NCBI RefSeq assembly: GCF_003856835.1
Contig: NZ_CP034145.1
Coordinates: 1,426,001-1,490,000, forward strand
Source of the DNA: Haloplanus aerogenes
Lineage (GTDB): Archaea > Halobacteriota > Halobacteria > Halobacteriales > Haloferacaceae
DNA: 64,000 nt
Direction of reading: 5' to 3'
The translations under genes were made by a program, and so were the position numbers. The notes under the pieces are model-generated. The model ran no database searches and had not been told where the DNA came from. It saw only the letters and a program-made list of their open reading frames with translations. This document shows, one piece after another, positions 44,688-47,722 of the stretch (the first letter of the stretch is position 1; each line of letters begins with the position of its first letter).

Positions 44688-45908
44688 ATGAGCGACCGGA
44701 ACATCCGTATCGAGTCCGTCGACCGGCGCGCGGTCGAGGACCAGGAGGTGGAGATCGTCGAGCGGAAAGGGATCGGACATCCCGACTCCCTCTGTGACGG
44801 GATCGCGGAGAGCGTCTCCCGCGCCCTCTCGAATCTCTATCTCGATCGCGTCGGGGAAGTGCTGCACTACAACACGGACGAGACGCAGTTGGCTGCCGGC
44901 AACGCCTCCCCCGCCTTTGGCGGCGGCGAGGTGGTCGAGCCGATCCACGTGTTGATCGTCGGGCGCGCCACCCGACAGTACGAGGCCGACGACGGTACCT
45001 CGTACACCCTCCCCGTCGACTCGGTGGCGCTCTCGGCCGCCCGCGACTACCTCGCCGAGACCGTCCCCGAACTCGACTTCGGGACGGACGTGGTGGTCGA
45101 CGTGCGCCTCGGCGAAGGGAGCGGCGACCTCCAGACCGTCTTCGGCGAGGACGGCGCCGCCGTCCCCATGGCCAACGACACGAGTTTCGGCGTCGGCCAC
45201 GCGCCCCTGACCGAGACGGAACGGATCGTCCTCGAAGCCGAGGAGTACCTCAACGGCCCGTACGCCGACGACCACCCCGAACTCGGTCCCGACGTGAAGA
45301 TCATGGGCAAACGTGAGGGCGATCGGATCGACCTCACGGTGGCCGCGGCGATGATCGACAGCTACCTCGCCGACATGGCGGCGTACCGCGACGCCGTGGC
45401 GAACGTTCGCGAAGCCGTCACCGACCTCGCGGAGTCCTACACCGACCGCGCCGTCTCCGTCGAGGTCAACACCGCCGACGACTACGACGAGGGCTCCATC
45501 TACCTCACCACTACCGGCACCAGCGCCGAACAGGGCGACGACGGCTCCGTCGGCCGCGGCAACCGCTCCAACGGCCTCATCACGCCAAACCGACCGATGA
45601 GCATGGAGGCCACGAGCGGGAAGAACCCCGTCAACCACATCGGGAAGATCTACAACCTCCTCAGCACGCGCATCGCGGAGACGGTCGTCGACGAGGTGGA
45701 CGGCATCCGCGACCTCCGGGTGCGCCTCCTCAGCCAGATCGGCCGTCCCATCGACCAGCCACACGTCGCGGACGCCTTCGTCGTCACCGACGACGGCGTC
45801 GACCTCACCGACATCGAAAGCGACATCCAGACCATCGTCGACCGCGAACTCGCCGCGGTGACCGACGTGACCCGTGACGTGATCGAGGGCGACCTGCGGA
45901 CGTTCTGA
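44688..45908 (+). CDS. mat: S-adenosylmethionine synthetase, archaeal type
   Basis: This 406-residue protein is an archaeal MAT. It contains [45 protein letters not shown] and [20 protein letters not shown]. It makes SAM from methionine and ATP; the methionine synthase pair is at 23.5-25.5 kb. A TATA element (aagttatagca, 44654) about 29 bases upstream fits a leaderless transcript. A perfect hairpin and then a long tandem repeat follow its stop. Confidence 0.95.
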
Positions 45909-45910
45909 CG

Positions 45911-45931
45911 CCGGTCGTAATCGACGACCGG
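45911..45931 (+). terminator. Perfect hairpin after the SAM synthetase gene
   Basis: CCGGTCGT (45911-45918) pairs exactly with ACGACCGG (45924-45931) around the loop AATCG, starting two bases after the metK-type gene's stop codon. It is a plausible transcript end, although no T-run follows. Its right arm touches the first unit of the tandem repeat. Confidence 0.45.
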
Positions 45932-46490
45932 ATCGAACCACGGTCGTTTCACTCCCTGATTCGAGCCGCCCTCCGGAACGGATCGAACCACGGTCGTTTC
46001 ACTCCCTGATTCGAGCCGCCCTCCGGAACGGATCGAACCACGGTCGTTTCACTCCCTGATTCGAGCCGCCCTCCGGAACGGATCGAACCACGGTCGTTTC
46101 ACTCCCTGATTCGAGCCGCCCTCCGGAACGGATCGAACCACGGTCGTTTCACTCCCTGATTCGAGCCGCCCTCCGGAACGGATCGAACCACGGTCGTTTC
46201 ACTCCCTGATTCGAGCCGCCCTCCGGAACGGATCGAACCACGGTCGTTTCACTCCCTGATTCGAGCCGCCCTCCGGAACGGATCGAACCACGGTCGTTTC
46301 ACTCCCTGATTCGAGCCGCCCTCCGGAACGGATCGAACCACGGTCGTTTCACTCCCTGATTCGAGCCGCCCTCCGGAACGGATCGAACCACGGTCGTTTC
46401 ACTCCCTGATTCGAGCCGCCCTCCGGAACGGATCGAACCACGGTCGTTTCACTCCCTGATTCGAGCCGCCCTCCGGAACGGATCGAACCA
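45929..46490. repeat. Perfect 50-bp tandem repeat, 11 full copies plus a partial
   Basis: A 50-bp unit beginning gatcgaaccacggtcgtttc starts at 45931 and recurs at 45981, 46031, 46081 and so on to 46431, with a ten-base partial copy at 46481-46490. All copies read identical to one another. The unit length is not a multiple of three and contains TGA, so it is not coding. It has no unique spacers, so it is not CRISPR. It fills nearly all of the 611-base gap between the SAM synthetase gene and thiI. Exact identity suggests recent expansion or ongoing homogenisation. No homology to known replication or recombination sites was recognised. Confidence 0.97.
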
Positions 46491-46519
46491 CCCTAGTACT
46501 CCGACGGCGTAGCTACCCC

Positions 46520-47722
46520 GTGACCGTGGACGACGCCGATCCGACACCCGACACCGTCCTCGTGAGCTTCGGCGAACTCGGAACAAAGAGCCGCGAGGTC
46601 CGTGGGAAGATGACGCGTCGCCTCCGCGACAACGTGGCCGCCCTCCTCGACGACCGCGGCATCGACGCCACCGTGGATCGCGAGTGGGCGCGGATCGTTA
46701 TCCACGCCGACGACCCCGACCGTGCCGCCCGCGTCGCCGCCGACGCCATGGGCGTCGTCTGGGCGCGCCCCGCCGTCCGCTGTGCCGCCAATCTCGACGC
46801 CATCGAGGAGACGCTCGCCGCCCTCGCCAGCGACGCCGACCCGGTCGACACTTACGCCGTCCGCGCGCGCCGCGCCGGTGACGCCGACGACCACCCATTC
46901 ACCAGCCGCGACATCGAACGCGAGGGCGGTCGCGCCGTCGGCGTCGCCACGGACGCCACGGTCGATCTCGACGACCCCGACCGCACGTACCACGTCGAAG
47001 TGCGCGGCGCGCGGGCGCACGTGACCGCGACCACCTACGAAGGGCCGGGTGGCCTCCCCCTCGGGACACAGGAACCGCTCGTCGCCCTCGTGAGCGGCGG
47101 CCACGACTCCCCCGTCGCGGCCCACGAGGTGATGCGCCGCGGGGCACCGGTGATTCCGGTCTACGTCGACCTCGGCGTCTACGGCGGCCCGGACCACGTG
47201 GCGCGTGCGGTGGCGACCGTCGGCCGACTCGACCGCTACGCCCCCAACTTCGACTGTCGGCTCCGGGTCGTCCCCGGCGGCGACCTCGCCGAGACGCTGA
47301 TCGAGGACGTCGAAGACACCCGGATGCTCTCGTGGCGGCGCGCGCTCCTCCGTATCGCCGAAACCGTCGCCGAACACGAGGACGCGGCGGGCATCGTCAC
47401 CGGCGAGGCGTTGGGTCAGAAGTCGAGCCAGACTGCCGCCAACCTCACTGCCACCGACGCGGCGATCGACCTGCCCGTGCATCGCCCGCTCCTCACGTGG
47501 GACAAACCCGACATCCTCGACCGGGCACGCGCCATCGGCACCTACGAGGACTCGTCGATCCCCGTCGGCTGTGAGCGACTCGATCCGCCCTTCCCCGAAA
47601 CCGGTGCGACCCGCGAGGCCGTCGAGGCGGCCGAACCCGCCGACTTCCTTGACCGGGCCGCGGCCGCCGTCGATGATCTGCGGATCGTGACTGTCGACAC
47701 CGCCGACGCCGACGCTCGGTAG
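46520..47722 (+). CDS. thiI: tRNA 4-thiouridine synthase / thiazole biosynthesis protein ThiI
   Basis: This 400-residue protein has an N-terminal ferredoxin-like and THUMP region (VLVSFGELGTKSREVRGKM, then YHVEVRGARAHVTATTYEG) and a PP-loop ATPase SGGHDSPVAA (about 192-201), with TGEALGQKSSQT. It adenylates and thiolates U8 of tRNA. The C-terminal rhodanese domain of E. coli ThiI is absent, as in other archaea. It starts with GTG; a second in-frame GTG follows two codons later. Its promoter region is taken up by the 50-bp repeat array. Confidence 0.92.
   Translation: MTVDDADPTPDTVLVSFGELGTKSREVRGKMTRRLRDNVAALLDDRGIDATVDREWARIVIHADDPDRAARVAADAMGVVWARPAVRCAANLDAIEETLAALASDADPVDTYAVRARRAGDADDHPFTSRDIEREGGRAVGVATDATVDLDDPDRTYHVEVRGARAHVTATTYEGPGGLPLGTQEPLVALVSGGHDSPVAAHEVMRRGAPVIPVYVDLGVYGGPDHVARAVATVGRLDRYAPNFDCRLRVVPGGDLAETLIEDVEDTRMLSWRRALLRIAETVAEHEDAAGIVTGEALGQKSSQTAANLTATDAAIDLPVHRPLLTWDKPDILDRARAIGTYEDSSIPVGCERLDPPFPETGATREAVEAAEPADFLDRAAAAVDDLRIVTVDTADADAR

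Follow-up and report, generated by a model that had tools for sequence, protein, structure and literature searches.

The intergenic region upstream of thiI in Haloplanus aerogenes is filled by a perfect tandem array of a 50-bp unit, which is probably an ectopic, recently amplified copy of a hairpin element that haloarchaea carry in the tails of tRNA genes. Within the window (the whole 64-kb stretch of DNA that we analysed), Tandem Repeats Finder placed the array at positions 45929-46491, with a period of 50, 11.3 copies, 100% match, 0 indels and a score of 1126. The next-best tandem repeat in the window scores 87, a gap of more than tenfold. By direct comparison within the assembled sequence, the array consists of eleven identical 50-bp units (45929-46478, minus-strand unit TTCCGGAGGGCGGCTCGAATCAGGGAGTGAAACGACCGTGGTTCGATCCG) and a 13-bp partial twelfth unit, CGGATCGAACCAC (46479-46491, minus strand T-loop-like GTGGTTCGATCCG), and the period-50 identity spans exactly 563 bases. 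The initial annotation had described eleven full copies and one partial copy, all identical; we found no mismatch or indel among them, and its start at 45929 is correct, while the end it gave at 46490 lies one base short of the true end at 46491. The unit is also, as it had proposed, non-coding and without spacers. Identity as a CRISPR array was rejected, the units being identical, head-to-tail and devoid of unique spacers.

The minus strand of each unit carries a hairpin core, TCGAATCAGGGAG...CGACCGTGGTTCGA. The 32-bp element core of the first unit lies at 45933-45964 (minus strand TCGAATCAGGGAGTGAAACGACCGTGGTTCGA) and recurs every 50 bp; the remainder of this unit, at 45965-45978, reads GCCGCCCTCCGGAA on the plus strand. 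Read on the minus strand, the thiI unit is GGCTCGAATCAGGGAGTGAAACGACCGTGGTTCGATCCG plus a short spacer, in other words the core and arms of the family described below without an acceptor copy. Unlike the array, the relatives of the unit sit inside larger modules that also contain another hairpin and a copied tRNA 3' end.

Both flanking genes lie on the plus strand and had been named correctly. Upstream is the archaeal-type S-adenosylmethionine (AdoMet) synthetase gene (44688-45908; PF01941), and downstream is thiI, a tRNA 4-thiouridine synthetase-like gene (46520-47722; PF02568, ThiI_fer, THUMP); the immediate neighbour products tested were the AdoMet synthetase, ThiI, CYTH, DUF5804 and PALP proteins. 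The hairpin noted earlier at the end of the upstream gene is real. It follows the AdoMet synthetase stop codon as an inverted repeat, CCGGTCGT-N5-ACGACCGG (45911-45931; arms at 45911-45918 and 45924-45931), read from the sequence, and shares its last three bases with the start of the array. On the other side, a BRE/TATA-like element, CGGATCGAACCACCCTAGTAC (46479-46499, plus strand), precedes the GTG start of thiI by about 25 bp and, judging from its position and conservation, would act as the thiI promoter. CGGATCGAACCAC is present both at the start and at the end of the array, and in the window its end copy is followed by CCTAGTAC. The view that the array occupies the thiI promoter region is partly right: the array adjoins the promoter-like TCGAACCACCCTAGTAC about 25 bp before the start codon, but the element itself is undisrupted. 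Because the promoter-like element has been kept, the array would be expected to have little or no effect on thiI, and it is probably a neutral accident.

Comparison with relatives reveals the site as it exists without the array. In nine congeners the AdoMet synthetase gene is followed directly by thiI, with neither an array nor a tRNA gene between them. Most of these congeners keep a TCGAACCACCCTAGTAC-like sequence about 25 bp before the thiI start, with a variant in two (G002 and G003). A TCGAACC(A)CCCTAGTA-like sequence is likewise common to most congeners and intact at the edge of the array, and the partial twelfth unit equals their native promoter-proximal sequence. Taking eleven units away restores the gene-junction arrangement of the relatives. 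Perfect copies, together with the absence of the array from nine congeners, support the earlier suggestion of recent expansion. Read on the minus strand, the native sequence (GTGGTTCGATCCG) looks like a tRNA T-loop, and it has GTGGTTCGA in common with the element's end. As a separate observation, the AdoMet synthetase-thiI spacers of G002 and G007 (L077, L082) contain another palindromic insert, ACTGT.TACCGGTGGTTCGCCG...CGGCGAACCACCGG...TGACTTACA.TAAACCGTA; at the thiI locus of G009 a relative lies in the other flank (L076 flank).

The location of the array next to a promoter-like element, with each unit repeating the upstream half of that element (CGGATCGAACCAC), could suggest a cis-regulatory array in which repeated hairpins or protein-binding sites tune thiI transcription by copy number. 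We regard this as very unlikely: the array is missing from nine congeners with the same gene order, the units do not include the TATA-like part, the same core is found at many unrelated tRNA loci, and perfect copies suggest a recent rather than a selected structure. Phase variation, a protein-binding array and a replication or partition site, all raised in the initial annotation, are unsupported. The core of the unit is a dispersed element tied to tRNA genes, a link that the letters of this stretch alone could not show.

That tie emerged from searches with the unit itself, which had been recommended earlier. When two array units were searched against 40 related genomes, the 32-bp core was found at other places in other species; reading these sites revealed tRNA genes beside nearly all of them. 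A covariance model of the core, R1, was built from 80 modules. It matches 74 of the 81 sampled Halobacteriales genomes, and 312 genomes from the rest of the phylum gave no match; within the genus, all 12 genomes have it. The genome under study has 27 R1 matches, 11 in the array and 16 elsewhere. Each of the 16 non-array copies lies 3' of a tRNA gene and on its strand, and together they belong to 13 of the 47 tRNA genes; the chance of such placement for a random position is 0.0013 per locus, or about 1e-38 for 13 loci. Among distinct matches from other genomes, sampled from the better-scoring part of the match lists, 168 of 183 lie 3' of an ARAGORN tRNA gene on the same strand, and several of the remaining 15 show a tRNA 3' end just upstream in the sequence. 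A pattern scan of one-genome-per-species contigs gave almost only haloarchaea among the matches listed, of which 104 of 123 are 3' of a tRNA on the same strand, one of these being a chance bacterial match.

In this genome, only the thiI array lies away from tRNA genes. Its eleven R1 matches (E 1e-8 to 8e-8) have both the core and the inverted T-loop-like arms of the family, but the 64-kb window holds no tRNA gene, nor is there one among the RF00005 hits near it. Because the copy is ectopic and has no adjoining tRNA, we file the array as a displaced derivative of the tRNA-tail family and not as a typical member.

Modules of the family have a fixed order when read on the tRNA strand. The tRNA 3' end is followed by a first hairpin (consensus about CTGC.CGAACGAACGTGAGGAGC) with a conserved, CGAACGAACGTGAG-like loop region, then by a 5' arm such as GGATTCGAAT, the motif CAGGGAG, a variable hairpin, CGACCGTGG and finally a direct copy of the tRNA T-loop/acceptor 3' end. 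The 5' arm is the inverted complement of the 3' side of the T-loop and not a copy of the 5' strand of the T-stem; in most of the 80 modules it carries GGATTCGAA, not GGTTCGAA. Across the same 80 modules, the arms track the host tRNA, with 124 double-changed pair cells where shuffles average 51; sliding the partner by one column lowers arm pairing from 91.5% to below 48%. A further comparison, in which the 5' arm appeared closer to the true tRNA than to the copied tail (52 vs 14 sites), was set aside because the site set was partly picked by a pattern that fixes the sequence of the copy. The loop motif of the first hairpin, when sought in the 64-kb window, occurs only at chance level. Tandem G-A/A-G mismatches (CGAAC...GTGAG and GGGAG...CGACC) occur in the first hairpin (e.g. 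L049, between 1418 and 1450) as well as in the core; similar mismatch motifs look common in haloarchaeal intergenic hairpins.

Copies linked to tRNA genes fold strongly as hairpins on the tRNA strand (z about -6). This, along with strict orientation and distance and paired arms, is what one would expect if the modules were co-transcribed as tRNA trailers and acted as structured RNA, the thiI array being an antisense or stray copy. We consider such an RNA element unlikely, since DNA folding of the modules is equally significant (z -6), the thiI array has no tRNA for co-transcription, and no Rfam family matches. The arm mismatches point the same way: G-U and A-C mismatches number 46 and 42, whereas selection at the RNA level predicts a bias toward G-U. 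With the two types equally common, selection on the core as a tRNA-strand RNA is unsupported. In Rfam searches, the array and four element loci yielded nothing other than tRNA genes, and hits in the window were at chance level.

Relationships among the cores bear on where the inserted copy came from. The 32-bp core of the array is identical (32/32) to modules located 3' of tRNA-Leu(taa) in two congeners, G003 and G007, which also share the short TGAAA hairpin of the unit; identity to modules of G001 is 94-95%. The part of the unit formed by its 5' arm and spacer (ATCCGTTCCG-GAGGGCGGCTCGAATCAGGGA) has its best match, 28/32, in the tRNA-Val(tac) module of the same genome and also matches other Val-type modules. 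No donor module with the exact hairpin of the array is left in this genome, and the best full-core matches belong to other species.

A Val-type 5' arm, in a family where nearly every other copy is tRNA-linked, might also indicate a relic of a lost tRNA gene that formerly separated the AdoMet synthetase gene from thiI, with only an amplified module left behind. This is a very remote prospect: none of nine congeners has a tRNA at the junction, their spacers are short with a continuous native promoter-like sequence, and the unit has no acceptor copy.

Within the genus, the mean distance between cores is 0.37 for the same tRNA in different genomes and 0.51 for different tRNAs. Since cores are more alike at the same tRNA, much of the family has been passed down in place and is not freely mobile. 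Identical 26-base hairpins nevertheless recur from one tRNA to another, both in this genome and in a congener, and identical or near-identical hairpins are also found in other genera; therefore, some movement or conversion of cores from locus to locus has taken place as well.

Haloarchaeal integrative elements duplicate tRNA 3' ends, according to two accounts (PMC3119063, PMC7921747), and the modules could be passive scars of such elements that used a tRNA 3' end as their attachment site. However, scars of unrelated elements would not share a single core, and one conserved core precedes the tRNA copy at a dozen or more tRNA isotypes (at least twelve) across the order. Mobile DNA gave no true copy either: the core was absent from phage and plasmid records, and the strict pattern had 0 matches in viral contigs. 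A looser pattern had 120 matches in viral contigs, which were rejected because they are without T-loop arms and look like chance. We consider the scar explanation quite unlikely.

Tandem growth is a habit of the whole family. Modules linked to tRNA genes often form tandem repeats with periods of 88-123 bp and 96-100% identity, including near-perfect arrays in this genome (115 bp x 3.2 and 113 bp x 2.2) and elsewhere (111 bp x 4.2, 106 bp x 3.2 and 94 bp x 2.6), and the 12 congeners bear from zero to three full modules behind tRNA-Leu(taa). The closest parallel to the thiI array is a core-only array of 47 bp x 4.2 located 3' of tRNA-Val(tac) in G006 (L332:774-969). The partial copy in a tRNA-linked array is typically the 3' end of the tRNA itself, and the one at thiI is again native sequence. 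Here the 13-bp native T-loop-like sequence is duplicated and the acceptor end is absent. MITEs and small mobile repeats have terminal inverted repeats and move to new sites; here there are inverted arms and an ectopic site that is new within the genus, but no transposition was seen. Assembly easily goes wrong where perfect repeats exceed the length of short reads, and the copy number could in principle be an assembly artefact. The clean period, the two clean junctions and the presence of similar arrays in independent assemblies of other species make this improbable.

Two other features were seen in the tails of tRNA-Leu(taa). A second class of tRNA-tail modules, with the core GGGATTCG...CCGGACGAGCGAAGCGAGTCCGG...GGTTCGAATCCCC, is present 3' of this gene (L323, L328); it likewise ends in the tRNA 3' end and is intermixed with the main class. 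In addition, a block of about 100 nt (AAGCGAAAAGCGATCGTACGGGG...CTTGCCGCCCTGAATTGGTCCCCGCTGACGCTTCGGCCCTCCAGACGAAGCGTCA), conserved and non-coding, lies 100-400 bp 3' of the gene (L318-L329) and is present, at least partly, in 11 of 12 congeners. Its copy in this genome (L322) has no Rfam match; the block is possibly an unannotated RNA.

From these end products we infer both a capture route and an expansion route. A fragment of a module, comprising the 5' arm and the core and probably of tRNA-Val(tac) type, would have been captured beside the thiI promoter, where the native GTGGTTCGATCCG imitates a T-loop. The likely route is template switching or recombination via short homologies, ATCCG on one side and GTGGTTCGA on the other; the proposed capture junctions comprise 5 and 9 bp of homology. 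A template switch would leave the native site at ATCCG, copy the arm and the core, and return at GTGGTTCGA, duplicating the native 13 bp. The resulting 50-bp unit could then have grown to eleven copies through slippage or unequal exchange. For the family as a whole, the most likely function is that of a small non-autonomous mobile or recombinogenic hairpin, which fits the displaced copy as well as the sharing of cores and the growth in tandem. Tentatively, and with somewhat less than even confidence in the full combination, we suggest that tiny hairpins colonise tRNA tails across the order by adopting an inverted T-loop arm and an acceptor copy of the host tRNA, that they spread between tRNA genes via homology-guided template switching or an enzyme, and that they now and then reach T-loop-like sites elsewhere, the thiI promoter among them, and amplify there.

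Several known systems resemble this family in part. Bacterial REP/BIME sequences are dispersed short imperfect palindromes that can cluster in tandem; REPs are partnered by a RAYT transposase, show no tie to tRNA genes and carry no copy of a host gene end. Both they and the present family are dispersed and form tandems, but the latter is tied to tRNA genes and copies the end of the host tRNA. Integron attC sites are imperfect hairpins in direct tandem arrays; this is a resemblance only, and the present arrays are without gene cassettes. Closer to hand, the small mobile repeats SMR-A and SMR-B of Haloquadratum walsbyi are non-coding, about 80-110 bp long and contain inverted repeats; SMR-A inserts into palindromes, and the mobilising enzyme is unknown (PMC3119063). 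The present family is similarly haloarchaeal and non-coding with inverted repeats, but, compared by description, it differs in lying 3' of tRNA genes with a copy of the host tRNA 3' end. Partial tRNAs adjacent to full tRNAs have been described in Haloferax gibbonsii (PMC7921747), an account whose available text describes neither a core or hairpin nor a family or tandem array. Topic searches and searches with core sequence words, run on the main texts of freely accessible papers, found no published description of the tRNA-tail element, and the family is apparently undescribed.

The array next to thiI exposes a widespread repeat family that tracks tRNA genes in nearly all sampled Halobacteriales. 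It raises the question of how a short non-coding element comes to match dozens of tRNAs, and whether it helps or burdens them. Model haloarchaea are amenable to such work, and mobility, transcription and an effect on tRNA processing are open to direct test. The partial tRNA remnants that annotators note beside full tRNAs may be explained by tRNA-tail modules.
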